Shown: positions 12,401-52,280 of the stretch, one piece after another | How positions within the stretch are numbered: the first letter of the stretch is position 1 | Layout of the letters: the number at the start of each line of letters is the position of its first letter | NCBI RefSeq assembly: GCF_000337215.1 | Contig: NZ_AOHZ01000035.1 | Span: 37,387 to 93,539, forward strand | Reading direction: 5' to 3' | Source: Natronolimnohabitans innermongolicus JCM 12255 | GTDB lineage: Archaea; Halobacteriota; Halobacteria; Halobacteriales; Natrialbaceae | DNA length: 56,153 bases | The notes under the pieces: model-generated | What the model was told of the DNA's origin: nothing | Database searches by the model: none | The model's input: the letters and a program-made list of their open reading frames with translations, nothing else | Program-made: the position numbers and the translations under genes

Positions 12401-12928
12401 TGCGGGCGAAATCCCACTTCGTTTCATCGACCCGATAAACGAGAGGAGTTTCGATGCGACGCCGCTCCCGTATGAATCTGGGCCGTAGACGTTGGGTTTG
12501 ACGGCACGGTATTCGATCTCGTCGAGGACATCGAGGACGATGACGTACTTTTCAGCATCCGTTGCGATCTCGAAGTCTGGATCTAATCCCGCGTCATAGG
12601 CATAGTCCGTCAGTATCTCGTTGCAGATAGAGTGGTATGTGTACGCGTCGACGTCGTAACCTGCTGGTCCGAGTTTTGCGTTGAGTTTCTCACGCATCGA
12701 ATCAGCGGCGTTGTTGGTGAAGGTCAACGCGAGAATCCGATCCGGAGAGACCCCGTGTTCATCGATGAGATTCTCGATTTTCCGGACCATCGTGAACGTC
12801 TTTCCAGTACCCGCACCCGCGAGTACTCGCATAGGATACCGCTCCGACTCGATTATCGTCCGCTGCTGTGGCTTCGGATCCTCATCGTCTTCGATGGTTG
12901 GGAGCCAGTCAGGCACGTCGTCGCTCAT
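9491..12928 (-). CDS. UvrD/AddA-like helicase with C-terminal PD-(D/E)XK Fe-S nuclease
   Basis: The protein has 1145 residues from ATG 12928, chosen because it gives an ATGA overlap with the upstream gene. SF1A helicase motifs are intact: VLAGAGTGKT near 37-44, FCDEFQDTD near 362, VVGDDDQAIYEWRGA near 392, and MTIHKSKGLDFPVV in the C-terminal half. The last 250 residues form a RecB-type nuclease: GFIDAVYR near 1022, VVIDYKA near 1040 and QLPLYLLA after it. Cys in YEECPRQ near 915 and HCRWCQHSSLPC near 1125 can coordinate a 4Fe-4S cluster, as in AddB and Cas4. The layout is that of AddA, the ATP-driven helicase-nuclease subunit for double-strand-break end processing. It is the last gene of the three-gene operon. 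Confidence 0.92.
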   Translation of the reverse strand: MSDDVPDWLPTIEDDEDPKPQQRTIIESERYPMRVLAGAGTGKTFTMVRKIENLIDEHGVSPDRILALTFTNNAADSMREKLNAKLGPAGYDVDAYTYHSICNEILTDYAYDAGLDPDFEIATDAEKYVIVLDVLDEIEYRAVKPNVYGPDSYGSGVASKLLSFIGSMKRSGISPAEIEEYLGSPEQVYELDAVPNRIEEIAGDHLGGRSVSTVLDGISDTRADLVAERDTLRDEGLEASIKDFLNRLVDLCDALEVAFEEHEAGERSLPEDAHKLPKYLLGGYSSGAPGGIPNDLKLELTDYLRNALDECKTALDLNAGYEAYERELDRRNLLDFDGLVVKTVELLQTDVGKGLGDRWDYVFCDEFQDTDRLQFGLITSLVSEDRLFVVGDDDQAIYEWRGANVANITDELDDVFGPDLEDEPLEQNFRSRQPILDLANEALERLADRRSTKTLTRVHEPDFDGDTVAVVEEADDEGDRAEQLVTVTRNLLSGDAEALDRAYDPGEIALLVRNNDHATPILEGFDEAGIPYQVAGDLSTESIGVGTVVAYLKALARPEEDDVSWNRVLTMRYRLTDADLRRVNSHDDGAYAGICNQPLEVFDEPNRIQEVREHISRLLKLRETASLSHLYRELKRLTNIDWYLSEQERRDLAQLDEIIDQYGNDAVQPPLTPQFIDSLQHYDSLLEESGSAPTSQPELADDAVNVMTIHKSKGLDFPVVLMPRLIADEWEPGSRTYDTFESALSEGPESVFDKDLVAQDANEARRILHVGITRAEEILVLHGSREEDDTDDERPVHDAVESILPESVPWRPSNGHLPIWRDLQECLPSNHADWTASLASTVVGDVSGQVTYGSEKLSASDGRDRVITFGNKLIEGSIEREPENRRFSIDALTGPMTPNPALQHSYTSLEAYEECPRQHFLDYVVNGFSDYRENGYGGDGISQRIVGLLFHDTAEIAAKEQAAERAEWYAICERLAGQRRATDELPVAKECIDQYFDLDLSGWEIVDAEREFQLEVDGHELVGFIDAVYRTPDGELVVIDYKATERHRDIDENKQLPLYLLACRDLYEEPITRAGYAYVGDIGPKVEARSFDEGELDSVRAAVSTTMDRIKETSFSGYETGEHCRWCQHSSLPCGEEWRQEDGGR

Positions 12929-13833
12929 CGCTGCACCCCCTCCGTGAGAGATTCTACGCACATCTCTCGGAACGTGCAGTCGGGACAGGCCTCATCGTGA
13001 ATGAGTGGGAATGGATCTGGGTCGTGAGAACCGCTCGTAATCCCTTCGTGTGCACGTCGCAGGAGATTCCATATCGTGTCATGATACTCTTCGTAGATGT
13101 CCGTCGTATCGCGTGGATAGCCCCGTACAGAGATTTCGTATCCGTCTGGTGTGCTTTCGAACGACGTCCGATTCAGGAGACCGTAGAAACTGAATCGAAC
13201 ATTCATCCCATCCTCGTAGAGGTCAGACTGTTTGACGCCCTCGATGTATGTGGCCGCCTGAAATGCGTTCCTGACTCTCTTCGGGTCATGATCCGTTCCG
13301 TTTAGGTGGTCCTCGAGGACGCTCGCAGTATACGACGTGATCACGTCATTGAGGTTCCGCTTGTAATCGATGACATGGAGACCTTCGTCAGTACGGAGGA
13401 TGTTGTCGGCTCTCCCGCGCAGTCCGAGCCCGTTCTCAACGCATTCGAGCCACTTCTCCGTCGCGATCGATTGACGAGCGTGATCAATGCCGTGGCCACC
13501 ATCCGGGTCAAAAAAGGTCTTGATAGCCTCTAGATTTTCAAGGCGCTGGTATTCCTGGTGGGCGCTGGACGCGTACTCATCCGGGTCGATATGCTCTCTC
13601 CATTGCTCTGGGAATGCCTCTACTGCCCGATCGTAGATGAGCTGGGCGTCATCTTCTGGACTAGTTGCTTCACAGACAACCTCGATTGTTCCGTGATAGG
13701 CACGCCCCTGATTCAGGTACAACCGTGTCTTCTCTGGGGTGTTGACCTTCTGTATGTACTCATAATCGAACTTCCGCTGGCAGTCCGCGTAGGTCGCAAG
13801 ACGCGACGGCGAAAGGAAGGTAACGTCAGTCAC
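12925..13833 (-). CDS. Cas4/RecB-like PD-(D/E)XK nuclease with Fe-S Cys motif
   Basis: This predicted nuclease has 302 residues from GTG 13833. That start overlaps the upstream stop by 8 nt and leaves the family-like opening FLSPSRLATYADCQRKF. A longer frame to ATG 13911 exists but runs 86 bp into the upstream gene. PD-(D/E)XK residues are visible in LRGRADNIL and HVIDYKRN (about 155-175). The first Cys (near 18) and the late CPDCTFREMC (near 285-294) form the four-Cys set of AddB/Cas4 nucleases. Since the upstream AddB-like protein ends without a nuclease domain, this gene probably supplies it in trans as a split AddB. Stop and start of the next gene overlap as ATGA. Confidence 0.88.
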   Translation of the reverse strand: MTDVTFLSPSRLATYADCQRKFDYEYIQKVNTPEKTRLYLNQGRAYHGTIEVVCEATSPEDDAQLIYDRAVEAFPEQWREHIDPDEYASSAHQEYQRLENLEAIKTFFDPDGGHGIDHARQSIATEKWLECVENGLGLRGRADNILRTDEGLHVIDYKRNLNDVITSYTASVLEDHLNGTDHDPKRVRNAFQAATYIEGVKQSDLYEDGMNVRFSFYGLLNRTSFESTPDGYEISVRGYPRDTTDIYEEYHDTIWNLLRRAHEGITSGSHDPDPFPLIHDEACPDCTFREMCVESLTEGVQR

Positions 13834-15898
13834 GACGAATCCCTCCGGCAGCGAACTCGATACGTGCTTGCAGCGCATCCCGAAGCTGCTCACCACGGGT
13901 TCCGCTTTCACTGAGGAGGTGCTGAATCTCCGAAAGTTCAGTTTCGACCTCGTCGAGAGAGACCGTCACATCCTGGCTGTGAGAGCGACGGACGTCTGCA
14001 AGGGCGTTGTCGATCCGAGAGAGCAGGTATTCTTCCGCTCTTCGCTCGCTCCTGATCTCTGGTTCTGTCGCCTCTTTCACCCACGGCAACTGCCGATAAG
14101 CGTCCGTGAGAAACCGCGACGGCTGAGCACGCTCTTCCAGTGCGGTGTCTTTGTGATTGTATAGACAGAAGTACAGGCGGTCGCCAGCAGCGGTTGCTCC
14201 GATGGCGAGCCGCCGCCGCGCGTGCTCTGCATGGTATCGTCGGAACGAGCGGCTTGACGCTGTCGAGGACGTCGGGAAGGTGTTGGTGACATCTTCCGCC
14301 TCGACCTGTGTTACGCCCGGATAGTCCGGCATCTCTGAGAGGCGTTCTTGGGAGAACAACCGAGTCAGGGAAGGTGATCCAGGGTACTCTTCGTCGACGA
14401 TGTCCAGCAAAAAGACTGCTCGGAAGGTTCCGTTTTTAATCGCCTGTAAGTGATCGACTCGGACACCTCCGTCAAGTTCGGTCGAACTTGTTTGGTTCTG
14501 TTGAGGGGCATACTCGTGAGCCCGTTCAAGCATCGAGGCGAACGACTTCCAGGTCGTTTCGATGAACGACGTGTCTTCTACGAACTCCGCCATAGCGAAC
14601 GCCCGCCGAACGTTCCCGAATTGGGCACGAACGTTCAGTGGGGACGTCTCCTCAGCAATTCGAACCTTCATGTTTGACTCAGTTGCCCACCGTCGGAGCG
14701 GACTCGAGAGGCCCTCCATCTGCTCGATAGAGGCCAGAATCGATTCGTCTAAGACCGAGGCTTCCAGCAGCTCTATTCGAATATCGTCATCATCGGCTGC
14801 CAGATAGCGAACGACTTGTAGTAGCTCTCGAATAGCGGGGTCATCGCCGAACCCCGTGACAGTCGAGGACTCTGTCGGAACCCCTGTCTGCTGGAAGGCA
14901 CGAAGCGTCTCGATTACTGCGGAACCGCTCTGTTTCAGTACGACGGCGAAATCCTCGTACTCCCAGTTCTCTCGATCTCTAAGCCGCTCGATTTCATCGG
15001 CGACTTTCTTGATCTGTTCGTCGGGGGTTTCTGTCGGAATAACGTTCACCTCCCCCGCCTCGGGATCTTCGTGAACGGTTTCATTCGCTAGGTACGCACC
15101 CGTCGCATCCGGACGAGATGGGGGCGCTGTCCTTGCAGTAGACTCTGTCCTCGAAAATGAGACGTAGTCAGTAATTGGCCCCGGCTCGATCCATGTACGC
15201 CGAACACTTGCGTTCTCTTCTGCTACACATACGAGTTCCAGCCCATTTGCTAAGGTAGCGAGATAGCGACGGTCAAGCGGTAAGAATTCCTCAAACTCGA
15301 CGGTGAGGATTGCCTCGACATCCACTACGTCGTCTCGTTTCTCGGTCTCCGACAGCGCCGCATTCGCCTCAGTGATTAGCTGGCCGCGTTCCAGGTGGTC
15401 ATGTTCGCTGAGCCATTTGTGGAACGCTTCCACGAGTTCTGCAACTTCGACTAGCTCTGGTGTCTTCTCAAAGGAAACATCCTGCCACGTGATAGTTTCC
15501 ATGAGCTGGGCGATATCACTCAGGAAGGAGGGTTGTTCGGCTGCACGCTGGAAATGCTCGCTGTCCCACTCTTGATCTTCGAGGAACCGATGGACGAGTT
15601 CGCGACGAATCGCGTCGGAGAGGATCGCCCGGTCATCGGTCTGGTTTACGACGTCGGTCGCTTGAACGACTAAAGACGTTACTCGCGGGACTGCTGCACC
15701 GGGTGTTGTATCTTCGAGTTCGTCCCGAAACGTATCCATGCTAGTTGGCGACCCGGTGATGACGAGGATGTCCTCTGGGCCGTATTCGTTGAGCAACGAC
15801 TCATACTGTTCAATTACCGTGGATATGAGATCTCCAGTGCCAAATGGAACGGTAATCAAAGTCCCCTCAAAGTACTGTACCTCAGACACGCTTGACAC
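13826..15898 (-). CDS. AddB/RecC-like inactivated helicase subunit
   Basis: The protein has 690 residues, with GTG 15898 as the longest start (another in-frame GTG is at 15889). It resembles AddB and other UvrD-fold proteins that lost ATPase motifs. The N-terminal position of Walker A reads VPFGTGDLIST without GK[ST]. The C-terminal half has FRAVFLLDIVDEEYPG, typical of the AddB/UvrD C-terminal fold, then an Arg-rich RRRLAIGATAAGDRLYF segment like the UvrD motif around VALTRA. It ends before any nuclease domain, which the next gene provides. First gene of the AddB-nuclease-AddA-like operon. A non-catalytic, DNA-scanning role as in AddB is inferred. No strong TATA box was found in the 230 bp upstream. 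Confidence 0.8.
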   Translation of the reverse strand: MSSVSEVQYFEGTLITVPFGTGDLISTVIEQYESLLNEYGPEDILVITGSPTSMDTFRDELEDTTPGAAVPRVTSLVVQATDVVNQTDDRAILSDAIRRELVHRFLEDQEWDSEHFQRAAEQPSFLSDIAQLMETITWQDVSFEKTPELVEVAELVEAFHKWLSEHDHLERGQLITEANAALSETEKRDDVVDVEAILTVEFEEFLPLDRRYLATLANGLELVCVAEENASVRRTWIEPGPITDYVSFSRTESTARTAPPSRPDATGAYLANETVHEDPEAGEVNVIPTETPDEQIKKVADEIERLRDRENWEYEDFAVVLKQSGSAVIETLRAFQQTGVPTESSTVTGFGDDPAIRELLQVVRYLAADDDDIRIELLEASVLDESILASIEQMEGLSSPLRRWATESNMKVRIAEETSPLNVRAQFGNVRRAFAMAEFVEDTSFIETTWKSFASMLERAHEYAPQQNQTSSTELDGGVRVDHLQAIKNGTFRAVFLLDIVDEEYPGSPSLTRLFSQERLSEMPDYPGVTQVEAEDVTNTFPTSSTASSRSFRRYHAEHARRRLAIGATAAGDRLYFCLYNHKDTALEERAQPSRFLTDAYRQLPWVKEATEPEIRSERRAEEYLLSRIDNALADVRRSHSQDVTVSLDEVETELSEIQHLLSESGTRGEQLRDALQARIEFAAGGIRRD

Positions 15899-16100
15899 CC
15901 CATAGGTTCACCTGTCCTTCCTTGATAGGTTTCGAACTGCTCCAGATTCCCGTTATCTGAGCGCTTGAGTCTGAATTAGGATACACTCTGAAAGAGGATC
16001 TTGCTGGATGAATATACATCATACTGAAAGGTCTCACATTCCACCTACAAGAACGTTCGTGCTACGCTAAAACTGAAAATTGGACCATTCAGATGGTACA

Positions 16101-16109
16101 TATTTATAC
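16101..16109 (+). promoter_or_regulatory. TATA box for the COG1373-like ATPase gene
   Basis: TATTTATAC is centred 27 nt before ATG 16132, the standard spacing for a leaderless haloarchaeal transcript. The stretch 15899-16100 is otherwise AT-rich and without a visible gene. Confidence 0.6.
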
Positions 16110-16131
16110 TATGCCAGAGTGAAGTTCCTAT

Positions 16132-17838
16132 ATGACAGACCCATCTGATGGTTCTGATTTCATTGCAGATGCTGAATGGCACAACGAATGGTGGGATACA
16201 GATGCTGGTTCATTATCTGAGTTAGAGGAAACCGCTTCTCTAGACCCTCGATCGGATTTGCTCAAGGTTCTTCAGTCAATTGACGAGGAGCGAGAGAACG
16301 GAACCAAGAGTCTCGTATATCCAATTTATGGGCCAACCGGAATCGGGAAGACGACGCTTCTCCAACAATTCATCGCTGCAATCCTTCATTCAGACATTGT
16401 CGAATTCTCTCCAGGACACCGTGATTTAGATATCGTTGGGTCTGTTGATCCACGTCAGATCCTCTATGTTCCTCTTGAGGATTCTCTCTACCATCTCGAA
16501 CCCTCGAGCAGTGCTGTGGAAAAATTAGAAAACGTTATCGACTACTTCCGTTCCCATGTGGCTCCCCGCCGAGGCCGCAAGTACATCATCCTCGACGATA
16601 TCGGTGCTCTACGACTCGATGAAAATGAACAGAGTGCGCTTCTGGATCTCGTAGACGATGATACCTATCTACTGCTGACCGGTATTGTAGAATCGCAGGT
16701 CGATCTGCGTGGTATCTCGGCTTCGAGCGAGCCCAAACTCAATTATCCTCGTGCGATGTTGCCGATGAAGTTCATAGACACAATCAAGCAGGGGGCATAT
16801 GATGATTCTGCGTTAATCGAGACAGACTCTGATTTTGCTCTTCGAGTGGAGTCTCATCAAACGAGGAGTATGGATGGTGAGTCGCTGATAAAGGATGTTC
16901 GTAGTAATTTGTCTGAATCGGATGACTTGGACGACGCAGTCGCTTCGTTGAATCAGCTTTACTTTGAGGTTTTCTCGGATGTTGAACGAGATGGGCTGTA
17001 TGAGGCCGCTCGTGAGTACCTGCAGAAAGGGGGAATCTTCCTACGCGCTAAGGAAACCCCGGTGAAAAACGAACTTATCCGATCTCATCTCCTCTTGTAT
17101 CTCTACAAGGAACTCGCAGAGTATGAATCGATTCAACGACCAGAGAACCTCCATCGCGTCGCTTCATTAGCTGCGAGCCAGGCAGGGAATGAACTCAGAT
17201 ATACGGACATCAGTGATCAATTAGAGGTTGACCGTCGGACTGTTGACTCGTACTTATCCGTGCTGGATGACGGACTTTCAGTTTCGGAATCCCACGACTT
17301 CTCACTTCAACGTCACCGTCGTACTCGACTTTATCTCCGGAATCCGCGCCACGTTGTACTTCTGTCTCAGCGTCAGGAGCACCACGGATTTGAAACATAC
17401 GAGAAGACCCGGTCGCTCAATCACGAGTTCGAGTATAAGCTAGCTCGAACCGTCGCATTCGACCATGCAAAACGACTGGCGTGGAGGGTTGGCGGCTCAG
17501 GTGACGAGGATCCTCAGGTCGAATACTTCGAAACTGAGTCAGGGACGGTCGATTACATCCTCCACAATGAGGATGGGTTAGTTGTCCCGTTCGTTCTCTC
17601 CTACCATCCACATGCTGGAAATGCCGACGAAATCGCAGCAGAATTTGACCCATCCGTTGGGAAACATCCGATACCCGGTGGGGAAGAACTTCGCGATCTC
17701 AATTATGAAGCGCCTTATCGGTTTATCATCACCGATAGCTTGCCAAAGGAAGTGACGAAGTCTGGTTCACTTGTCGTCGAGTATGATGGTGTCAAACTCT
17801 GTTATATCCCCTACTGGTTGTTCCTTCTCATTTGTTAG
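16132..17838 (+). CDS. AAA+ ATPase of the COG1373 (AAA/DUF4143-like) type
   Basis: The 568-residue protein has Walker A YGPTGIGKTTLLQQF near 66-75 and Walker B KYIILDDIGAL near 150. The sensor segment YLLLTGIVES comes near 183. A winged-helix-like stretch (YTDISDQLEVDRRTVDSYL) lies near 360-380. The C-terminal part begins FEYKLARTVAFDHAKRL, then VDYILHNEDGLVVPFVLSY, and resembles the restriction-endonuclease-like end of DUF4143 proteins, where a D-x(n)-ExK motif is often replaced. Such stand-alone ATPases are common on archaeal accessory DNA and are suspected of toxin, defence or regulatory roles. The gene has its own promoter and stands between the helicase island and the conjugation module. 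Confidence 0.72.
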   Translation: MTDPSDGSDFIADAEWHNEWWDTDAGSLSELEETASLDPRSDLLKVLQSIDEERENGTKSLVYPIYGPTGIGKTTLLQQFIAAILHSDIVEFSPGHRDLDIVGSVDPRQILYVPLEDSLYHLEPSSSAVEKLENVIDYFRSHVAPRRGRKYIILDDIGALRLDENEQSALLDLVDDDTYLLLTGIVESQVDLRGISASSEPKLNYPRAMLPMKFIDTIKQGAYDDSALIETDSDFALRVESHQTRSMDGESLIKDVRSNLSESDDLDDAVASLNQLYFEVFSDVERDGLYEAAREYLQKGGIFLRAKETPVKNELIRSHLLLYLYKELAEYESIQRPENLHRVASLAASQAGNELRYTDISDQLEVDRRTVDSYLSVLDDGLSVSESHDFSLQRHRRTRLYLRNPRHVVLLSQRQEHHGFETYEKTRSLNHEFEYKLARTVAFDHAKRLAWRVGGSGDEDPQVEYFETESGTVDYILHNEDGLVVPFVLSYHPHAGNADEIAAEFDPSVGKHPIPGGEELRDLNYEAPYRFIITDSLPKEVTKSGSLVVEYDGVKLCYIPYWLFLLIC

Positions 17839-17893
17839 CTCCTATTTTCCTGCATTGAATTGAGTAGGTTCCTCACAATCGTCTGTCGGAAGC

Positions 17894-40907: not shown

Positions 40908-41241
40908 CCGAACGCTTCTGCTCGAGATCAACAAGCTGTTGCAGCATCTTGTCGAATGCTGGCTGAGACATATTCTCCTGAAATCAGACATCACAGTGTA
41001 ACTATGGGACGTTCCGCAGCTCTACACAAGAGCACTATTATTTAACCTACAAGACTCACAAACCGACGGTCTGTTGGTTAACCCATTCGTGACGCCTGTC
41101 TGATTTGCAGTCCTAACTCCATACTGGCACTTGCAATTTCAGCGCTTCGTGATCGCGATTCTGTAAGCGCTCGTTTGATTGCTGTTCGACCTATACCATA
41201 GTCTGAAAGTTTTATCTCAATCGGTTCTGTTGACAGTACAT
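40908..41241. promoter_or_regulatory. Intergenic stretch with TATA-like box for the DUF262 gene
   Basis: About 330 bp without a visible gene. GTTTTATC at 41209-41216 is centred 29 nt before ATG 41242, fitting a leaderless start. TGTTGGTTAA at 41072-41081 repeats the arm seen at 31840, probably by chance. Confidence 0.4.
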
Positions 41242-43152
41242 ATGATGGAGACGCTTGAAGACTTTGTCTCAAAACTTAACGAGCGGGCGTTTCTGCCGGG
41301 CCTGCAGCGAGAGTTTGTCTGGGACGAAGAGCAGATTGCAATGCTCTTCGACTCATTCATTCGTGGGTACCCTGTCGGTCAGGTAACGCTGTGGGATGTC
41401 GATAGTGCTGAAGACAACTTCACCACGTACGAATTCATCCGCAAGTACATCGACGGCGATGGACGGGTACCTCGACGAGTTCGCGACCGTGATGCCCGAC
41501 GTTATAACAAGCGTGTTGCAGTTGAGGATATCATCTGTGATTATCTCGTCATTGATGGGCAACAGCGGCTCAATTCAGCATACGTTGGCCTCTGTGGTTC
41601 GTTGTTCACATACTCGGGTGGGAGTGCCGGCAGTCGAGCAGACGAACGGTTCTGGAGCGAGAAAGTTCTCTGTATCAATCTGCTCGGCAGCCCTGAGTAC
41701 CGCGACGCCGATGGGCTTAGACTCGCAGGCGACTACGAATTCGAGTTTCGGGCGACGGACAGTCTAGATCCCGAAAGCGAGATCGGCTACGAAAGGACAT
41801 TAACGAGCGACAGTGACGTCCATCGTTTGTGGTTTCCCGTTCACGAATTCGTCACCGAGAACGGAGCGGAACGAGAGACAAGCACAGTGGACCACGAAGT
41901 GGAACAACAGATTGAGAATCTAGAATTGAGTGCGACGGGGCCACAGAGACGGGCGCTGCACCGCGTGGCGCAACGGGTCGTCACGAAATTCCGCCAAAAT
42001 GTACTGGGCTACGAACTTCCGAGTACGACGGTCAAGTACTCTTCCCAAGAAGTTCACACGATCTTCTCGCGCATCAATCTAGCCGGAGAGAGTCCCCAAC
42101 CATACCAGTACACCCAGTCATTGCTAGCCACCTACTGTCCGTACACCGAAGAAGACGCGTTCCATCCACGCGAGAAGTTAAAATCACATATTGAAACACT
42201 GTCCGACCGTCATCCAGATTTCGAGACAGAGATTACGAGACAGTTCCTCACTCGCTGCTTGGTTTATTTGATTAACGAAGATCTCCTTCAGACTTCGGTC
42301 GAAGCTTTCTCGAAAGATGAGGAGGTAAAGGACATGCGCAACAAGTGGATCGCCCCCGATGACATGGGGAACCCACACGGCCGCTTCGAAACAGCCATCG
42401 ACAGAGGGTTTCAAACGGTCGGTAATGTCGGACTGACGCCGAAGTCGATGCCGAGTATACTTCTCGTCGCTCTCTTGGCGAAATTTTACTATGAAAATCC
42501 TGACGCCGAAGTCAACGAGGCGAACGAACGAGCTGCATTCCGCTTTGTTGCCAAGTCCCAGCTGCTCAATGCGTTAACCGGCTCACAGGCCCGATCTATG
42601 GCACAATCACTGTCTGATCTTCGGCCGGAAGACGGCTTTGAGACCTTCCCAGGTGATCAGTTGCTTGATGATATGGATCTCCACCTCACCGCCGAACACG
42701 TCGACAAAGCCGTCGAGAACGCACGCTACGACAATGGGGCGAGCGAGGGTGATACGTTCACCCACAAAGGCGTCGCGGCAATCCTCGCGCTGCTTGATGA
42801 AGGGCATGCCGATCTTGATATTGAGCGGCTCAGCGTGGATCATATATATCCGCAAGCATGTGCTGATGATATCCCAACGGTGGGCCCCGATAGTGGCGGA
42901 GTCAAGATCCACCGCATTGGTAATCTTCAGCTCCTCGACGCTGCAGAGAACCGTCGGAAAGGCAACACACTCCCCGAAGAATGGCTCAGCGGGCTTGGTG
43001 AGGCCGAAGCAGATCATTATCGCACTGTGAATCGCTACCCCGAGGGTATCACCCTGACACTAGAAAACTACCAAGAATTCGTCGAGCGACGAGAAGTTGC
43101 AATGAAAGAGGCGCTCAAGGAAAAATACGCCGTATCGGCGGTCGAACCTTAG
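41242..43152 (+). CDS. DUF262-DUF1524 nuclease (GmrSD/SspE-like)
   Basis: The protein has 636 residues from ATG 41242 (ATG 41245 also possible). The N-terminal DUF262 domain starts PGLQREFVWDEEQIAMLFDS and has the VIDGQQRLNSAYVGL motif near 103-117, where DGQQR is the ParB-like nucleotide site. The C-terminal DUF1524 HNH-type nuclease has DHIYPQA near 533 and HRIGNLQLLDAAENRRKGN near 557-575. This single-chain layout occurs in GmrSD, which restricts glucosylated-hmC phage DNA, and in SspE, which senses phosphorothioate DNA. No dnd/ssp modification genes lie in the window, so the GmrSD-like, modification-dependent reading is preferred. Confidence 0.88.
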   Translation: MMETLEDFVSKLNERAFLPGLQREFVWDEEQIAMLFDSFIRGYPVGQVTLWDVDSAEDNFTTYEFIRKYIDGDGRVPRRVRDRDARRYNKRVAVEDIICDYLVIDGQQRLNSAYVGLCGSLFTYSGGSAGSRADERFWSEKVLCINLLGSPEYRDADGLRLAGDYEFEFRATDSLDPESEIGYERTLTSDSDVHRLWFPVHEFVTENGAERETSTVDHEVEQQIENLELSATGPQRRALHRVAQRVVTKFRQNVLGYELPSTTVKYSSQEVHTIFSRINLAGESPQPYQYTQSLLATYCPYTEEDAFHPREKLKSHIETLSDRHPDFETEITRQFLTRCLVYLINEDLLQTSVEAFSKDEEVKDMRNKWIAPDDMGNPHGRFETAIDRGFQTVGNVGLTPKSMPSILLVALLAKFYYENPDAEVNEANERAAFRFVAKSQLLNALTGSQARSMAQSLSDLRPEDGFETFPGDQLLDDMDLHLTAEHVDKAVENARYDNGASEGDTFTHKGVAAILALLDEGHADLDIERLSVDHIYPQACADDIPTVGPDSGGVKIHRIGNLQLLDAAENRRKGNTLPEEWLSGLGEAEADHYRTVNRYPEGITLTLENYQEFVERREVAMKEALKEKYAVSAVEP

Positions 43153-43281
43153 TCAGAGCTCCTTATTGTTGGCTGAGTTGTGCGTGGAGAACATCTACGA
43201 CTGACGGAACGTTAGCAGCGGTATTTTTATTTGCCCCTGAAGGGTGCGGGGCTACTCAGAATTGCCTCGTGCTGATCGGAC

Positions 43282-43392
43282 ATGGTTACGAGAGACATCC
43301 CCAAGATGAGCTTCGGCGAACAGATCAGTAGAACAAATTCGGTTGCTACTCAGCTGGAATGGCTTGGAATCGAGCTTCAGGTGGAATTATGA
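43282..43392 (+). CDS. Possible 36-residue leader protein
   Basis: ATG 43282 opens a 36-codon frame whose TGA overlaps the ATG of the methylase-like gene (ATGA at 43389-43392), as in true coupled genes here. The peptide is mildly amphipathic (MSFGEQISRTNSVATQLEW). TATTTTTAT at about 43221-43229 lies upstream but 50 nt away. It may be a small protein, a coupling leader or chance. Confidence 0.3.
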   Translation: MVTRDIPKMSFGEQISRTNSVATQLEWLGIELQVEL

Positions 43393-44156
43393 GTTCTCAA
43401 ATCAAGCCGGAAATCCGTGAGATGGTGACAGATTCTTTGAACGAGATCTCTGTGAAGACTGGGGATTCGTCCTATCAGGTTTTCTCAGATTTTCTTGATC
43501 TCACTATCTCAAGTTTCTCCGGTGATGAACGGCAATACTCGGCTCAAATTGAACGATATCGTACTGATGGCCACGACATGGCCACCGTGAAGAATCTTCT
43601 TCAACTCCATGCAAAAGCTCTTAGCGGGCTTGTCGTTGGATTAGAGAAAACCAATGAAGATGTTCTTGGTGCTGTTTATGAACATTACTCAACTACCTCA
43701 GATAACTTTGCTCAGCACTTCACACCAGGCTCAGTTAGTGGTACAATGGCTGAAATAGCGTTTCCAGATGAGGACAAAATCCGTAATGCTTCCCCTGACT
43801 ACCCGCTTCTCATCGGTGATCTCAGTGGATGTGGAAGCGGAAGCCTTCTCTTGGAGAGTGCATATCGTCTTCAAAATATACGAAGAGATTGTCCAGCTAT
43901 CTACGTTGGATGGGATATTGATCCTGACTGCACGAAGATGTGTGTCATCAACTTCGTGTTGAATGGACTCCCAGGATATGTGTTTCAGGGAGACACGCTT
44001 CAAGTCCAAGTGAATCGATGCTGGAAAATCGAACCCACAAATCTGTCTCGAGAGAAAATGCCTGTTGCCGAAATACCCAACGGTGACACTGCTTACATCG
44101 AGGTCAAATCCAGTACACACGTTGATGATGGAACGGTCAAGTTTCCCGACCGGTAG
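43389..44156 (+). CDS. N6-DNA-methylase-like protein, C-terminus replaced by sfsA sequence
   Basis: ATG 43389 is favoured by the ATGA overlap (255 residues); ATG 43359 is ten codons earlier. The N-terminal domain is helical. FAQHFTPGSVSGTMAEIAF near 115-133, then LIGDLSGCGSGSLLLES and the Asp-rich YVGWDIDPDCTKMCVINF, correspond to the HsdM-like SAM-binding motifs (the first normally D-P-x-x-G-x-G). No NPP[YF] catalytic motif follows. After about residue 233 the frame continues as AYIEVKSSTHVDDGTVKFPDR, which is SfsA, not methylase, and then hits TAG. The gene is therefore a fusion to a pseudogene and may have been shortened. More AT-rich than its neighbours. Confidence 0.7.
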   Translation: MSSQIKPEIREMVTDSLNEISVKTGDSSYQVFSDFLDLTISSFSGDERQYSAQIERYRTDGHDMATVKNLLQLHAKALSGLVVGLEKTNEDVLGAVYEHYSTTSDNFAQHFTPGSVSGTMAEIAFPDEDKIRNASPDYPLLIGDLSGCGSGSLLLESAYRLQNIRRDCPAIYVGWDIDPDCTKMCVINFVLNGLPGYVFQGDTLQVQVNRCWKIEPTNLSREKMPVAEIPNGDTAYIEVKSSTHVDDGTVKFPDR

Positions 44157-44410
44157 ACTAAACGAGGCCGTCGTCATCTCTAAAATCTCGAAAAACTTCA
44201 TGAAGACGGGACGAAACCCATGTCGTCTTTATCGTCCAGCGTCCTGATGTCGAATGTTTCCGCCCATACCGGGATGTAGTTCCTGACTTCGCAGACCTAC
44301 TTTCCCGTGCGTAATGCGGGCGTCGAGGTACACGCCATCACAACCGTATTCGAACCACCCCGCTACCAATTTCAGAGCGACAAACTCCCGATTGACCTCG
44401 ACGAACTGTT
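44090..44410 (+). pseudogene. sfsA: sfsA fragment, broken by stops and frameshifts
   Basis: Read across frames, this strand gives the SfsA core: VEVKSSTHVDDGTVKFPDR, stop, TKRGRRHL, stop, then after a frameshift HVVFIVQRPDVECFRPYRD and PDFADLLSRA, then after another shift AGVEVHAITTVFEPPRYQF. SfsA proteins (sugar fermentation stimulation, nuclease-like fold) carry these motifs in this order. Stops at 44154 (TAG) and 44181 (TAA), plus shifts near 44218 and 44315, show decay. The N-terminal half is missing, replaced by the methylase-like gene. So this is a recombination joint in what was once chromosomal sequence. Confidence 0.8.
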
Positions 44411-44637
44411 TGTACTCGGGCGAGTGTCCGTCCTTCTTATCAATCTCACAATAAGAAATATCGAGCAACAGATAGGTATATGATTCTGAGTGGTTCCAAT
44501 TCCCAGTATCCGACGATAACAGGGGAAACAAACTCTCTAGCGCCGTGTTGAAAGATCGAAACAAAATAAGAAGGTGCCATTTTGTCACCGCAAGTACTAA
44601 GTGGTGTGCGGTCACACAACTTTCTGTGGCGGTAGAT

Positions 44638-45315
44638 ATGCGCGAAGGCGGAACACGGCTGGAAATCCTCTCCGTAGTCGCAACGCTAGAACGCGACCGA
44701 GAGAAGCCACCCCGCCAAAAAGACATCACAGAACAGGTCAGCGTAACACGAGGAACTGTCTCAAAGACGTGCACCTCGCTCGTCGAAGAAGGACAACTCC
44801 TCCTCGAAAACGGAGAATACCGTGTCAACGAGGAAATGCTCCTGCTCATCTACAAAGAGCATCTCGAAGGCTACCTCGTACGAGACTCTGCGAACAACGG
44901 GTTCGCGGACATAGTCGAAGCTCGCAACGAACTCCGAATACAGCTAAAAGGACAACTCCGTCAACTCGTGATGGACGGCGAAGAGGACGGCAGACGCCAG
45001 CTGATGGTGAACATCCTACGCGAAGTGCTGGTGTACGCGTCCACGTTCCGCGAGATCCAAACACTCCGTGACTACCTATTCACGGTCGATCACCTTGTCC
45101 GAACACTCGCCGCCCACATCACCACCAGCCCAGCCTTCGACAAAACCGTTGTCAAGCACTCGGACCCAATCCGCTTGCTGCTTCTCATCGCAGTAGCGCT
45201 TGACCGAGGATACAGCATGATGTCCAGCCTTCGCGCAACACACGAGGAACTCGACGAATTCCTCCCTGGAGAACCGGCAGAAGACCAGATGATCCGTTAC
45301 CTCAACCCACAGTAA
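44638..45315 (+). CDS. Winged-helix regulator of the type I restriction operon
   Basis: ATG 44638 gives 225 residues; an upstream in-frame start would add 31 poorly protein-like residues. Residues about 1-75 form a winged helix: LEILSVVATLERDREKPPRQKDI, the recognition helix TRGTVSKTCTSLVEEG, and the wing LLENGEYRVNE. The remainder is helical. It ends 5 bp before hsdM and is in the same operon, so it probably controls expression of the restriction genes, as similar haloarchaeal regulators beside hsd operons are thought to do. The 220 bp upstream hold no gene. Confidence 0.78.
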   Translation: MREGGTRLEILSVVATLERDREKPPRQKDITEQVSVTRGTVSKTCTSLVEEGQLLLENGEYRVNEEMLLLIYKEHLEGYLVRDSANNGFADIVEARNELRIQLKGQLRQLVMDGEEDGRRQLMVNILREVLVYASTFREIQTLRDYLFTVDHLVRTLAAHITTSPAFDKTVVKHSDPIRLLLLIAVALDRGYSMMSSLRATHEELDEFLPGEPAEDQMIRYLNPQ

Positions 45316-45320
45316 CCTAC

Positions 45321-46838
45321 ATGTCCGAAGAAGTTTACCACGACGTCACGCCAGAAGAGCTCGGTAAGAAACTGTACAGCTGCGCAGACGCGATCCGCGA
45401 CGCCGTCGACGAAACCCGGTACAAGAACTACATCCTCCCCTTGGTGTTCTACAAGAGCATCGATGACACCTTCGCCGACCGGTTGCAAAAGCAGAAGGAG
45501 CAGTTCGCCGGGGACGAAGAACTCGCACGGAAAGCGATCACCGGGATGTCCGTTCCCGACGACTACCGGTGGGAATCAGTCACCGAGCAGAGCGAGAACA
45601 TCGCACCCTACCTGGATGAAACGTTTGACGCTCTGGAACGAGAGAACGACCGTCTACGCGGGGTCGTCCGCGTCACGTACAGTGATGAAGAAGCGCTGGG
45701 TGACCAGCGACTTCGCGACCTAATCCAACGCATCAATAGGTTCGAGTTGAGCACGGAAAAAGTCGAGAAGGACTTCCTCGGCGAGGCGTACATGTACATG
45801 GTCGGGGAGTTCGCCAAGGACGAGGGTAAGGAAGGCGGCCAGTTCTTCACTCCACCGGACGTGGTCGACCTGATGATCCGTGTGCTCGCGAAGACCGGAT
45901 CCGAAGACGGGTTCGAGAAAGGTGCATCGTTCCACGACCCGACCTGTGGATCCGCAGGGTTCCTCGTCCACGCTGCCTCGTACTACCGCAACGAGCAGGG
46001 CGGCGACCCCAGTACGTGGAACGTCACCGGCCAGGAGCTGAACGCGGACATCGCCGCAATCGCACAGGTGAACACGTTCATGCACGGGCTCGAAGCCGAA
46101 ATCCGGCGGGAGGACTCCCTCTCTAACCCGCAGTTCCCGAACTACCTGGCAGACGACGAAGGATTCGACTACGTCCTCGCGAATTTCCCGTTCTCAGCTG
46201 ACTGGGCGAAAGACGACCTGAAAGACGACAAGTGGAACCGGTTCGACTGGGCAGACAAACTCCCACGAGCCGACCGAGGTGATTATGCCTTCATTATGCA
46301 CATCGCCAAACTGCTCAACGATCAGGGCAAGGCAGCGGTCGTTGTCCCCCACGGCGTTCTTTTCAGGAAACACGAGAGCAAATACCGAGAGCCCATGATC
46401 AAAGAGGATCTGGTGGAAGCCATCATCGAACTTCCCGGAAACCTCTTCCAGAACGTCTCCCTCCCAAGCGCAGTTCTCGTGCTAAACCGAAATAAAGAGG
46501 AAGAGAGGAAAGGAGAAGTTCAGTTCATCCACGCTGCCGACGAGCGGTTCTACGTCGAGCGAAGTAACCACAACGACCTGACTGATGAAGGGCGTGAACG
46601 TGTGGTCACAGCCTTCGAAAACTGGAGTACAGAGGAACGAATGTGCCGTACCGTTTCCATTGAGGAGATCACCGAGAACAATTATAATCTCAACTTATCC
46701 CTCTATGTTGACACCACCGAACCAGAAGAAGAAATCGACGCCACAAGGGAGCTGAAATTGTTGCGTGATTCACAAAAGAAGCGTGACAAAATAGAGGCTC
46801 GGATGACCCAGCACATGGAGGCGCTAAACTATGAGTGA
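45321..46838 (+). CDS. hsdM: HsdM, type I restriction-modification methylase
   Basis: The 505-residue protein has the HsdM N-terminal helical domain (about 10-135), then GGQFFTPPDVVDLMIRVL near 172-190, SAM motif I DPTCGSAGFLVHA near 205-218 and motif IV DYVLANFPFSADW near 283-295. The usual NPPF reads NFPF here; the first Pro is Phe. Such a change is unusual in HsdM and may matter for activity, though Asn and Phe that flip the base remain. HsdM with HsdS methylates adenine at the recognition site. The gene overlaps hsdS by 8 nt (ATGAGTGA). Confidence 0.95.
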   Translation: MSEEVYHDVTPEELGKKLYSCADAIRDAVDETRYKNYILPLVFYKSIDDTFADRLQKQKEQFAGDEELARKAITGMSVPDDYRWESVTEQSENIAPYLDETFDALERENDRLRGVVRVTYSDEEALGDQRLRDLIQRINRFELSTEKVEKDFLGEAYMYMVGEFAKDEGKEGGQFFTPPDVVDLMIRVLAKTGSEDGFEKGASFHDPTCGSAGFLVHAASYYRNEQGGDPSTWNVTGQELNADIAAIAQVNTFMHGLEAEIRREDSLSNPQFPNYLADDEGFDYVLANFPFSADWAKDDLKDDKWNRFDWADKLPRADRGDYAFIMHIAKLLNDQGKAAVVVPHGVLFRKHESKYREPMIKEDLVEAIIELPGNLFQNVSLPSAVLVLNRNKEEERKGEVQFIHAADERFYVERSNHNDLTDEGRERVVTAFENWSTEERMCRTVSIEEITENNYNLNLSLYVDTTEPEEEIDATRELKLLRDSQKKRDKIEARMTQHMEALNYE

Positions 46839-48231
46839 GGAAGCCTCACTGGACGACTTCGTAGAAGAAGAGTCACCTCCTAAGAATAAGACGCAAAGAG
46901 TAAGGCTTGGACCAATCAGTGCTAAGGTCCCCGTGGACTGGAGGGTCAAACCAATGAAATCCGTCTACCGAGAAACATCTATCGGAACCTCCGATAGAGG
47001 AAACGGAAATCAAGAGAATTTACCACTTATAAAGATGGGTGATATTAAGAGAGGTGATACATTCATTAGTGGGATAGATGAAGAAATAAAAAAGACCGAT
47101 GAACTACTTGAGGAACACTCTCTTAAGAAGGGCGATCTGCTCTTCAACACGAGAAACACTCCAGAATTAGTCGGAAAAACTGCGGTCTGGGACGGACATT
47201 GTACCGCGGTTTACGATAACAACATCTCTCGTGTTCGATTCAAATCCAATATTTCGACACTTTTTGTCAACTATTTCCTTTCATCAGAACTCGGATGGAG
47301 ACAACTGAGAGCGCGCGTCCAAGGCACAACAAGCGTGGCAGCGATTTATAACAGTGAGTTCGATAAATTCCAGATTCTACTCCCAAGTCTCGAGGAACAG
47401 CGAAAAATAAGTAGTGTTCTCTATACTCTCGATCAGGCGATCATACAAACAGAGGAGATAATCAACCAAGCAAATAAAGTAAAAGAAGCTGTCATTCAGG
47501 AATTCTACTCGGACGGTTACTATGACCATGACGAGTGGCAGGAGGGGAATAAGCAGGACGCTTATGTAATGACGCGAGCAGATGAGGTCCCCGCAGATTG
47601 GAAGATCTGTGAGGCGGATGAAATCGCTGACATTAAGACAGGGCACACGCCTTCAACGTCTGTCGATGAGTACTGGGGTGGAAGTATTTCATGGGTAGAC
47701 ATTCATGATTTGACTCAGTTAGAAAAGAACGTCATTACGACTACAGACGACACGATCACTGAGGAAGGCTTGGAAAACTCGGGTGCTAAGCTCCTACCAG
47801 AAGGTACGCTCGTTCTCTGCCGTACTGGTGCCATCGGAGAAACAGCCATCTTGGGGAAGGAGATGGCAACTGACCAAGACCAAGTGACGTTCGAGTGCGA
47901 TGAAGATGTAGTGCTCCCACAGTACCTCATGTACCTCTTCGAGTACGCAACCCCACAGCTCGAACGACTGTCTGCTGGGAGTACGCACGACAAGATCCAG
48001 CTGCACTTCTTCTCCGATCTGGAGATCCCACTCCCCAGCTTCGAGGAACAAGAGAAAATCGTGGAAGCAATCGAATCAGTCGATGACGTGGTAGTCACGA
48101 ACAAAGAACAACTAGAAAATCTACAACGCCTGAAAAAAGGCCTCGAGCAAGATCTTCTCTCGGGAGAAGTCCGCACAGCTGGCAAAGAGATCGACATACC
48201 CGACGAGGTCAAGCAATATGAGCCAGAGTGA
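46831..48231 (+). CDS. hsdS: HsdS, type I specificity subunit
   Basis: The 466-residue protein has two target-recognition domains. TRD1 spans about 30-185 and TRD2 about 245-405. Each is followed by a coiled-coil conserved region: EEQRKISSVLYTLDQAI at about 190-206 and FEEQEKIVEAIESVDDVV at about 405-422, and the last ends LLSGEVRT. It decides the bipartite DNA site. The first 700 bp use more AT-rich codons (AAATAAAAAAG-like runs) than the second half and its neighbours, so TRD1 probably came by horizontal exchange. It overlaps hsdM by 8 nt and hsdR by 14 nt. Confidence 0.94.
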   Translation: MSEEASLDDFVEEESPPKNKTQRVRLGPISAKVPVDWRVKPMKSVYRETSIGTSDRGNGNQENLPLIKMGDIKRGDTFISGIDEEIKKTDELLEEHSLKKGDLLFNTRNTPELVGKTAVWDGHCTAVYDNNISRVRFKSNISTLFVNYFLSSELGWRQLRARVQGTTSVAAIYNSEFDKFQILLPSLEEQRKISSVLYTLDQAIIQTEEIINQANKVKEAVIQEFYSDGYYDHDEWQEGNKQDAYVMTRADEVPADWKICEADEIADIKTGHTPSTSVDEYWGGSISWVDIHDLTQLEKNVITTTDDTITEEGLENSGAKLLPEGTLVLCRTGAIGETAILGKEMATDQDQVTFECDEDVVLPQYLMYLFEYATPQLERLSAGSTHDKIQLHFFSDLEIPLPSFEEQEKIVEAIESVDDVVVTNKEQLENLQRLKKGLEQDLLSGEVRTAGKEIDIPDEVKQYEPE

Positions 48232-51200
48232 CTTTCCCGAATTCAATGAGCAGAAAGTCGAGTACGCTCTACTCGAGTGGCTGGAAGACGCCGGATGGGA
48301 ATCCTACGGCGGACCCAATGAACCGGACGGCTGCACCCAACTCGACGCGAAATACGACCGCGAAGACAAAAGCGAAGTCATCTACTGGGAGCTACTGCGA
48401 CAGAAACTGATTGACCTCAACGACAAAGTCACCGACCACAACGTCGACGACGTCATCACATCACTCCGCCGCGACTTCGCAGGAGACGGGCTGATCGAAA
48501 CCAACCGTGATGTACACGAACTCCTGCAAAAAGGACGGCAAGTGACGCTCTCTAAATCCGATGGTACATCCGAGAGTGTAGTCGTCGACCTCATCGACTA
48601 CGAGAACACGGAGAACAACTCATTGATAGCCGCCAACCAGTTCCGAGTCCGTCAACACGAGCTGGTGATCCCGGACGTCCAACTGTTCGTTAACGGTATC
48701 CCCCTCGTCGTAACGGAACTGAAGTCACTCACACAAGACAGTACGGTCACCGACGCCATCAACGACCTAGATACTTACGAGGACGACGCACCCCGACTCT
48801 TCGGATCTGTCTTGTTCAACGTCGCTGCCGACCACGAGAAAGCACGGTACGGATCTGTCGGTGCACCAGAAACCCATTACAACCCGTGGGAACCTGAAGA
48901 TCCGATCGGTTCGTATAGCGAGTTGAAGGAGATGGCGTACTCCCTGCTCACACCAGGGACACTGCTCGACATCCTGAAACACTTCGTGTTCTACCAGCGG
49001 CAGCCGGGCGGGAACGTGAAGATCGTCCCACGGCACATGCAGTACCACGGCACCCGGGCGATCCTGCAACGAGTAGGCAGGGGTGAGTTCGAAAACGGTT
49101 TGATCTGGCACACGCAGGGGTCGGGGAAGTCGTTCACCATGTTCTTCACCGCGAGGAACCTGCTGTACCGGTCAGAGATCATCAAAACGCCGCAGGTTCT
49201 GATCCTGGTGGATCGGCAGAACCTTCGAGACCAGATGTCCGATGACCTGGGGAAACTCCTCGACTTCGAACATTACGAAGTAGTTACAGACGGAGCGAAG
49301 CAGTTACAGTCACTGATCGAAGAAGGACAGAGCCAGGTAGTCGTCACCACCATCCAACTGTTCCAAGACGTCGACAAAGACATCCAGAAGAACGATGAAA
49401 CCGTTGTCCTCTCCGACGAAGCACACCGGTTCATGGAAGCCAAACTCGGGAGCAAACTCGACGCCGCCCTCGACCACTACTATCACTTCGGATTCACAGG
49501 AACGCCGGTAAACGAAAACACCGAAGCCGGGCGAAACACCTTCCAGCACTACTCCGAACCACGAGACGAAGAAGGCTACCTCCACCACTACTCGATGGAA
49601 GCCGGGATCAACGACGACGTGATTCTCCCGGTTCACTTCGAACTTCGGCATTCCAACCGAGACTGGGAAATCAACGACGACGTGATGGACCAGGCGCATG
49701 AGGCAGCTACCGGCAGCCTCGACTACGACGAACGAGACGAACTCATAAGGGACACGATCAACCAGCAAACCCTCGCAGAACTTCGTCCACGTGTCGAAAC
49801 CATCGTAGAGGAAGTCGTCGAACACTACCAGAAAAAACTGGAGCCCAGTAACTGGAAAGGAATGGTCGTCACACCATCCCGGAAAGCTGCCGCACTCTAC
49901 GGCGAAGAACTGCAAAAATACCTTGACCCCGAAGAGGTAGAGGTCGTGATCTCGTCAGCAGGAAGATCCGACCCGATCACACGCACCTACCACACTTCGA
50001 AAAGTGAGCGAGAAAAGATCGTCGAAGAGTTCAAAGACGAGGATGGAGATCCGAAAATCCTCGTCGTCTGTAGCATGCTGCTGACCGGGTTTGACGCCCC
50101 GATCCTCAAAACGATCTACCTCGATCGACCGCTAACCAACCACAACCTGCTGCAAGCAATCGCACGAACCAACCGGCCTGACGATGGGAAACAGAACGGT
50201 GAGATCGTGGACTTCGCAGGCGTGTTCGCAGAAGGGAACGTCGACGAAGCACTGAGCTACTACCCGCCAAACGTTCGAGAAGCCGCAGCAGAAGACATCA
50301 ACGAACTCTTAGACAAGTTCGATCAAAAACTCGAGGAAGCACTCGAAATATTCAATCACATCGACGTCGAGGACAACCCGGAAGTGGTCGTCGAGTGCCT
50401 GACCTACCTGCGTAAAAACGCAGAGGCAAGACGCCGGTTCAAAGACTTGTACAGAGAGGTGGAGAACCTGTACGATACGCTGGCCCCGATGGGTGAGCTG
50501 GAAGACGAAAACACAGGCCGCCCGCAGAAATACAGCTGGCTAACACAGGTACACCTCGCGTATCAGCGGAGTATGAACCGGGAGAGCGAACCGGAGAAAC
50601 AGCTCCGTGAAAAGACGAAAGAGATCGTAGAGGACAACATCGATGTCGATCGGATGGAAGAGGACTTCGAGGTTGTAGAATTCGGGTCCGAACACCTTGA
50701 ACGGGTCCGAGACATGGATCCAGAGCAAGGGATCACCGAGGTTGCAGGTGCGGCTGACGATTACCTCGACGACCGATCCGAACACCACCCACGGTACCGG
50801 AAACTGAGTGAACGGGTTCGTGAAGTGGTCGATAAGTGGGAAAGCGACGAGGTTTCCGCTGACCGTGCGTACGAGGAGCTTGTTGAAATAGAAGAAGAGA
50901 TCCTGTCGGTGAAAGACGAAGCCGAAGAACGGGGAATGTCACAGTCTGGGCACGCACTGTTCACCGCATTGATGGATGAAAGTGAAGACGGGTTTGTAGA
51001 ATACGTTGACGGTGAAGACGAAGCTGAGTTCATCGCGAAACGAGTCGACGAAGAACTGGAGGAGCGGGTTGACACTGATTACGAGGACTGGCAGACCACG
51101 AAGCGAACACGTGAGGACATCCAGCAGCTTCTGCTCGAGGTGGTTGCGATTGAAGCAGAGAAACCTGAGCTGTGTAAGGATGACCGGTTCCTTGATGATG

Positions 51201-51238
51201 CTCGTGAATACCTTATCGAGAACTACGAGTCCGAGTAA
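48218..51238 (+). CDS. hsdR: HsdR, type I restriction endonuclease/translocase
   Basis: The protein has 1006 residues. The N-terminal PD-(D/E)XK nuclease has PDVQLFVNGIPLVVTELKS (about 152-170, Asp and Glu-x-Lys). The SF2 motor has IWHTQGSGKSFTMFF near 298-312, DEAHRF near 400, FTGTP near 425 and IARTNRP near 645. The C-terminal region is helical and acidic and should dock onto HsdM/HsdS. It starts inside the end of hsdS and completes the type I system. It pumps DNA and cuts at a distance when sites are unmethylated. Confidence 0.96.
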   Translation: MSQSDFPEFNEQKVEYALLEWLEDAGWESYGGPNEPDGCTQLDAKYDREDKSEVIYWELLRQKLIDLNDKVTDHNVDDVITSLRRDFAGDGLIETNRDVHELLQKGRQVTLSKSDGTSESVVVDLIDYENTENNSLIAANQFRVRQHELVIPDVQLFVNGIPLVVTELKSLTQDSTVTDAINDLDTYEDDAPRLFGSVLFNVAADHEKARYGSVGAPETHYNPWEPEDPIGSYSELKEMAYSLLTPGTLLDILKHFVFYQRQPGGNVKIVPRHMQYHGTRAILQRVGRGEFENGLIWHTQGSGKSFTMFFTARNLLYRSEIIKTPQVLILVDRQNLRDQMSDDLGKLLDFEHYEVVTDGAKQLQSLIEEGQSQVVVTTIQLFQDVDKDIQKNDETVVLSDEAHRFMEAKLGSKLDAALDHYYHFGFTGTPVNENTEAGRNTFQHYSEPRDEEGYLHHYSMEAGINDDVILPVHFELRHSNRDWEINDDVMDQAHEAATGSLDYDERDELIRDTINQQTLAELRPRVETIVEEVVEHYQKKLEPSNWKGMVVTPSRKAAALYGEELQKYLDPEEVEVVISSAGRSDPITRTYHTSKSEREKIVEEFKDEDGDPKILVVCSMLLTGFDAPILKTIYLDRPLTNHNLLQAIARTNRPDDGKQNGEIVDFAGVFAEGNVDEALSYYPPNVREAAAEDINELLDKFDQKLEEALEIFNHIDVEDNPEVVVECLTYLRKNAEARRRFKDLYREVENLYDTLAPMGELEDENTGRPQKYSWLTQVHLAYQRSMNRESEPEKQLREKTKEIVEDNIDVDRMEEDFEVVEFGSEHLERVRDMDPEQGITEVAGAADDYLDDRSEHHPRYRKLSERVREVVDKWESDEVSADRAYEELVEIEEEILSVKDEAEERGMSQSGHALFTALMDESEDGFVEYVDGEDEAEFIAKRVDEELEERVDTDYEDWQTTKRTREDIQQLLLEVVAIEAEKPELCKDDRFLDDAREYLIENYESE

Positions 51239-51506: not shown

Positions 51507-52280
51507 CTACTTGTCAACTAACGCTTCTCCTTCTTCCACCGTATCAACGTCCAACAGTTCCAAATACTCCGAATCCAGCTGGATACGATCCTCAGTCTCT
51601 TCTGGCTGCTCTTCACCTGTTAACGGGCAAGACGCACCTGCCCGGGGATTCGGATACCGTACCCTGACCGATTTCTGATTAACACGGACCACCCTTCCAA
51701 CTTGCAAACTTGGATTGCGGAATTTCACAACATCGTCTTTCTCTAACCGACTCCGCATTTCACCTCGCTGGCTCTCTCGTTCTTTCTTAGTTTGTTCACC
51801 GACAGAGGATCCAATCTCGTTCAAAGCACGTTGCTGCCCGCCACGTGCCGCTGCCCTTACACGGTCAATCTTCTCTTCTAATTCTTCTCTTGATTCTTGT
51901 TCTAACCGGCTTCGATTCTGCGCATTTTTTGTCGGGTAGTATGCTCGTCCAGCCTCAACTGGTGATGGCATTTCAGCCATCCGTCTACGTTTCCCCATCC
52001 AGTCATTGAATTGTCTTCGAGCACTGTTCACCCGGCGAAGCAGCATGTCATCTTGCAGGTAGTGGGGTTTCGCTTCGTCTGGAAGATCGCTGTACGCGGA
52101 TTCAATCGTTTCCACCGTTTCCCTAGGGGGAGACATGACTCTTGGAACCGAAATCTCGTCTACCGCCGATACAACATCCTCAATTGTTTCCGGGTTTTCT
52201 ACCGGTTCGAGCTCCTCTTTGTCTTCAACCGCTTGAAGCGCCTTTTTCCGGCCCGAACTGATTCCAAGAGGTTCGTCCAT
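51507..52280 (-). CDS. Hypothetical charged, helical protein
   Basis: The 257-residue protein is not recognised. Residues about 1-120 are helical. A strongly charged coiled-coil-like segment follows near 120-180 (LEQESREELEEKIDRVRAAARGG, then TKKERESQRGEMRSRLEKD). The C-terminal 75 residues look like a small beta domain: VVKFRNPSLQVGRVVRVNQKSVRVRYPNPRAG, again KOW/SH3-like, with acidic end. Two neighbouring proteins with a KOW/SH3-like domain suggest a shared nucleic-acid-linked task. It is the upstream gene of a two-gene operon. Confidence 0.55.
   Translation of the reverse strand: MDEPLGISSGRKKALQAVEDKEELEPVENPETIEDVVSAVDEISVPRVMSPPRETVETIESAYSDLPDEAKPHYLQDDMLLRRVNSARRQFNDWMGKRRRMAEMPSPVEAGRAYYPTKNAQNRSRLEQESREELEEKIDRVRAAARGGQQRALNEIGSSVGEQTKKERESQRGEMRSRLEKDDVVKFRNPSLQVGRVVRVNQKSVRVRYPNPRAGASCPLTGEEQPEETEDRIQLDSEYLELLDVDTVEEGEALVDK

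Follow-up and report, generated by a model that had tools for sequence, protein, structure and literature searches.

Results

Genes around the fused reading frame

The window, i.e. the entire stretch of DNA analysed (56,153 nucleotides), corresponds to positions 37387-93539 of a 93.5-kb contig of Natronolimnohabitans innermongolicus JCM 12255, the genome of which (4.59 Mb in 121 contigs) is 99.78% complete. The contig contains an ArdC-like gene with matches on plasmids of Natrinema, Natronorubrum, Natribaculum and relatives as well as transfer-like ATPase genes, which together suggest that it is a plasmid or an integrated plasmid. A comparison of the contig ends, as a check for circularity, found no overlap.

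In the window, an intact DUF262/GmrSD-type gene (41239-43152, plus strand; PF03235/PF07510; PADLOC HEC-05, E=2.7e-70), which is co-inherited with the methylase-like gene, is followed on the same strand by the native part of the methylase-like gene (43389-44086), the 3' part of an sfsA gene (44087-44409), a spacer with no detected homologue (44410-44534), and a regulator-like gene with an HsdM-HsdS-HsdR type I restriction-modification (R-M) operon (44535-51238). The R-M block is 78-81% identical to a Halorussus block, in which its orientation relative to the methylase-like gene is the opposite. Beyond the operon, a reversed hypothetical gene (51507-52280, minus strand) is 66% identical to the gene that directly follows the methylase-like gene in Halorussus. 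A McrB-like/McrC-like pair (PF12102 and AAA_5, PF10117; 34942-38876, minus strand) represents another restriction system in the window. At the site of motif IV, normally NPPF/NPPY, the window's type I HsdM (45321-46838) and the HsdMs of both Halorussus plasmids have ANFPF. The first-pass annotation of the locus referred to defence DNA; this description is only partly apt, in that the methylase-like gene lies between the DUF262/GmrSD-type gene and the R-M operon, but most relatives of the gene adjoin VWA and hypothetical genes on plasmids.

The fused reading frame extends from the ATG at 43389 to the TAG at 44154-44156 on the plus strand, comprises 255 codons, and encodes MSSQIK...VAEIPNGD-TAYIEVKSSTHVDDGTVKFPDR-stop. 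We used the start at 43389, which is common to the homologues, while a longer start at 43359 is not. A 37-codon frame (43282-43392), the stop of which overlaps the methylase ATG, was considered as a relic of the gene preceding the methylase in Haloplanus, gave no alignment, and was dropped. Codons 1-232 together with two bases of codon 233 make up the native part, which has a partial PF02384 match and 90.7-91.3% DNA identity to Halorussus; the 22 residues TAYIEVKSSTHVDDGTVKFPDR (44087-44153) are the SfsA-derived tail. The DNA match to Halorussus ends at 44086 and the match to sfsA starts at 44080, confirming the initial reading that the methylase-like frame runs unbroken into SfsA sequence and that the two meet, in frame, at a recombination joint through which the methylase-like gene has acquired a tail.

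The methylase-like core

The Pfam N6_Mtase model (PF02384) matches the fused protein above its cut-off (E=6.4e-8; residues 89-206 against profile positions 2-117 of 311), and the motif I/SAM-binding core is retained as DLSGCGSG. When the family profile was compared with the PDB, the matches were HsdM subunits; similarly, the predicted fold of the protein is closest to HsdM, with 3lkd_A as the best match. Accordingly, the protein shares the SAM-binding Rossmann core with HsdM-type N6 adenine methyltransferases (EcoR124I M, 3lkd), but it is much shorter and lacks catalytic motif IV. A regular-expression scan for this motif ([NDS]PP[YFW]) found it in none of 29 homologues and not in the fused protein. 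The absence of motif IV is, therefore, not caused by the fusion and, because it characterises the whole family, the product is probably a protein with a SAM-binding fold that lacks the catalytic motif rather than a working methylase; in terms of function, the label methylase of the first-pass annotation is not supported. Searches with the protein gave no confirmed relative in a scan of genome contigs and none in the phage collection, while many were found by the genome-locus search and in the plasmid collection. The protein also matches PHROG 5696, of unknown function, over positions 15-222 of 250.

Two plasmid genes, one from Halorussus pelagicus and one from H. salilacus, are nearest to the window gene; their products are annotated as "N-6 DNA methylase" (WP_128478947 and WP_253484793; 244 and 245 aa). 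These genes have 84-88% protein identity to the window gene and the same partial N6_Mtase fold, and they are preceded by the same DUF262 gene, with the intervening DNA also shared. At the DNA level, the two plasmids are 88% and 91% identical to the window across the DUF262-methylase block, both matches stopping at window base 44086; the DUF262 gene alone is 91.8% identical to that of H. salilacus and 86.9% to that of H. pelagicus. By contrast to the window gene, both Halorussus genes have a native tail without SfsA sequence, ending in GDQKDIINKLTTI and SDQKEIIDELAITV, and on both plasmids the hypothetical and R-M genes follow the methylase in the opposite order.

The sfsA remnant

The closest relative of the right-hand sequence is the almost intact sfsA of genome G122 from the same family, which has 238 codons. 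Window positions 44080-44409 are 87% identical to its codons 129-238 (E ~1e-112), and an sfsA on a Halopiger xanaduensis plasmid (WP_013875815) has 70% DNA identity over the part remaining in the window. The gene in G122 (locus L054, 9350-10067, minus strand) itself contains a single in-frame stop (TAA, codon 134), three codons past where the joint would fall; the gene is flanked by a tyrosine-recombinase-like gene on one side and a UvrD/PD-(D/E)XK/AddB-like block on the other, with secY nearby.

Relative to the SfsA DNA/RNA nuclease family (PF03749), the window retains only the 3' part (codons 131-238 of 238; 44087-44409, plus strand), which is a pseudogene. The PF03749 match (E=1.2e-13) covers only profile positions 44-136 of the C-terminal domain and is interrupted by stops and frameshifts. 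Neither this E value nor that of the DNA match to G122 is remotely attainable by chance. Read in register with sfsA of G122, the lesions are a TAG at 44154-44156, which ends the fused frame and is CAG (Gln) in the sfsA relatives; a TAA at 44181-44183 derived from CAA; a 1-bp deletion after 44210; and a 2-bp deletion after 44306. Thus, the two stops and two frameshifts initially counted here are exact. The native TAA stop has become GAA (44403-44405), and the similarity ceases within a few bases of it. SfsA sequence is present as first described, with its limits adjusted: it begins in the 8-bp overlap at 44079-44086 and ends at about 44409.

No match to the N-terminal OB-like domain of SfsA (PF17746) or to the 5' half of the G122 gene was detected anywhere in the genome. 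Similarly, no intact sfsA was found elsewhere in the genome, a search suggested by the first-pass annotation; the Pfam SfsA model matches this site only, and in pieces. That annotation also regarded sfsA as a once-chromosomal housekeeping gene. However, this view is not supported: only 6 of the family's 125 genomes have sfsA, the one congener has none, and in a sample of the class 11 of 391 pass the cut-off of the model. Because the gene is rare in the family, because one intact relative is on the Halopiger plasmid, and because the G122 copy lies beside an integrase-like gene, sfsA in these organisms is better described as an accessory gene.

The joint at base resolution

Across the joint, the sequence is CCC GAC GGT GAT C in H. 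pelagicus (codons 230-233), CCA GAC GGT GAC A in sfsA of G122 (codons 128-131), and CCC AAC GGT GAC A in the window. Relatives of both parents therefore share the 8-bp run GACGGTGA, which occupies the same phase at codon 231 of the methylase-like gene and codon 129 of sfsA and is flanked by unrelated sequence; the window has AACGGTGA at this site (44079-44086, plus strand). Base 44079 is A in the window and G in the relatives of both parents, and one of the 8 bp differs in H. salilacus. The microhomology is read from relatives of the two parents, not from the parents themselves. As the eight shared bases are read in one and the same phase in either gene, the reading frame crosses the joint, and 11-12 native C-terminal residues are exchanged for 22 SfsA-derived residues. 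A random joint between the two genes would fall in a shared run of at least eight bases with a frequency of about 0.0002, which supports microhomology-mediated joining.

Microhomology-mediated end joining is reported for Haloferax volcanii, where it was described as break repair in the laboratory (PMC7776575). There, as here, few bases are shared at a non-homologous joint and DNA is lost; for the window, the process is inferred from the sequence of the joint. In total, these observations support, without proving, microhomology-mediated joining, presumably by end joining (Mre11-Rad50-stimulated), although a recombinase or a replication slip could leave the same sequence.

Divergence on the two sides of the joint

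When the two Halorussus plasmids are compared with each other, their blocks are evenly diverged (82.9-92.3% identity). By contrast, between the window and Halorussus the DUF262-methylase block has 86.9-91.8% identity, the regulator-HsdM-HsdR genes 77.7-80.8% and the hypothetical gene 66%. This unequal divergence to the left and right of the joint, set against the evenness of the Halorussus pair, indicates that the two sides have different histories. We infer that DNA was imported from a Halorussus-like plasmid and that its right-hand boundary lies at the joint.

Window positions 8721-17845 and 41210-44086 have 92.3% and 91% identity, respectively, to H. salilacus DNA; the two segments are 114 bp apart there and 23 kb apart in the window, pointing to an insertion or a rearrangement between the AAA ATPase gene and the DUF262 gene in the window. 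The imported piece would, thus, probably be at least 12 kb long and later have been split by about 23 kb.

Discussion

We consider it highly probable that illegitimate recombination connected codon 233 of the methylase-like gene to codon 131 of sfsA within the eight common bases GACGGTGA, resulting in an in-frame swap of the C-terminal tail followed by decay of sfsA. In this scheme, a Halorussus-type methylase-like gene was joined to sfsA and, since the two genes read the eight bases in matching phase, the frame continued into sfsA; the native residues were lost and the SfsA residues gained up to the point where CAG became TAG. The other half of sfsA would have been lost, and the remaining 3' half is decaying as a pseudogene. 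Two observations fit this scheme less well: its partner product, with the sfsA 5' half and the native methylase tail, did not turn up, and the split of the imported block by 23 kb implies that more rearrangement happened than the scheme accounts for.

An inversion is the strongest of the alternatives, although we regard it as unlikely. A Halorussus-like order of methylase-like gene, hypothetical gene, and oppositely oriented HsdR, HsdS, HsdM, regulator and sfsA genes would have flipped at inverted copies of the 8 bp, placing the sfsA 3' half, regulator, HsdM, HsdS and HsdR genes in line behind the methylase-like gene and the hypothetical gene, reversed, at the far end. Indeed, in comparison with both Halorussus plasmids, the segment 44535-52280, which holds the R-M genes and the hypothetical gene, has the reverse orientation to the DUF262-methylase pair. 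However, a simple inversion leaves the uneven divergence across the joint unexplained, and this unevenness speaks rather for an edge of imported DNA. Moreover, neither the sfsA 5' half nor the native methylase tail was found downstream of the hypothetical gene or elsewhere in the genome; the reciprocal product, in which the sfsA 5' half is joined to the native methylase tail, is thus missing. Finally, in the stretches of the Halorussus plasmids that were read, no sfsA annotation adjoins the R-M block.

It is still less probable that the fused protein was selected, with the SfsA-derived tail as a functional addition. The frame is open, 38 of 39 core columns invariant in eight homologues are kept (the sole change is A182T), pairwise dN/dS to Halorussus is 0.14-0.22, and the C-terminal tails of natural homologues are modular, all of which would fit selection. 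However, the tail is short and predicted to be mostly disordered (14 of 22 residues with pLDDT <50, positions 242-255), the joint peptide pattern has no second occurrence in genome or viral contigs, and the codon changes private to the window are 12 silent and 13 non-silent compared to 34 and 15 in the two Halorussus lineages (Fisher p=0.08), a hint that the methylase-like gene is under relaxed constraint in the window. Given the low pLDDT and this hint, we regard the tail as a by-product that is most likely without function, and the methylase-like gene itself may, at low confidence, be on its way out.

That the contig wrongly joins unrelated pieces at an 8-bp overlap is very improbable: the genome is a draft in 121 contigs, but eight bases are too few to deceive an assembler, the methylase-like and sfsA pieces are each single-copy in the genome, and the flanks run on to both sides in one 93.5-kb contig. 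We discount almost entirely that the methylase-like family naturally carries the SfsA-like stretch as a domain, since none of the homologues examined has an SfsA tail, the condition named in the first-pass annotation as refuting its reading, SfsA was found in only 2 of 35 loci, both being the window locus itself, and the last residues of the nearest homologues are QKDIINKLTTI and QKEIIDELAITV. Altogether, the joint is best attributed to ordinary illegitimate recombination and gene decay, and it is probably not a new kind of protein. As such, it documents illegitimate recombination in a plasmid-like haloarchaeal contig to the exact base, with relatives of both parents at hand, and it illustrates how eight shared bases allow one C-terminal tail to replace another without loss of frame.

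The wider family has a different type of C terminus. Outside Halorussus (loci L061-L087 and L004-L007), 26 of 27 homologues end in an acidic linker and [QETN]xx[hydrophobic]xx[FYW], in 21 of them with Q (e.g. QAGFDEFA, QASLGAFEGSD and QAQFAAFTD); shuffled tails, which ignore relatedness, gave on average 0.3 (strict) and 1.2 (loose) such ends. These ends resemble the PIP box (QxxLxxFx) with which haloarchaeal proteins partner PCNA. Based on these patterns, we give about an even chance to the idea that the homologues form an undescribed haloarchaeal plasmid family with a SAM-binding core and no catalytic motif that attaches to the PCNA sliding clamp by a PIP box at the C terminus, carried on an acidic linker; in the Halorussus branch, ancestral to the window gene, the PIP tail is absent, and the stub of the window copy would then have been exchanged for SfsA sequence. 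An annotation as "N-6 DNA methylase" in this family need not mean methylation, and the wider family, with its likely clamp-binding tail and no catalytic motif, would be more useful for experiments than the joint.
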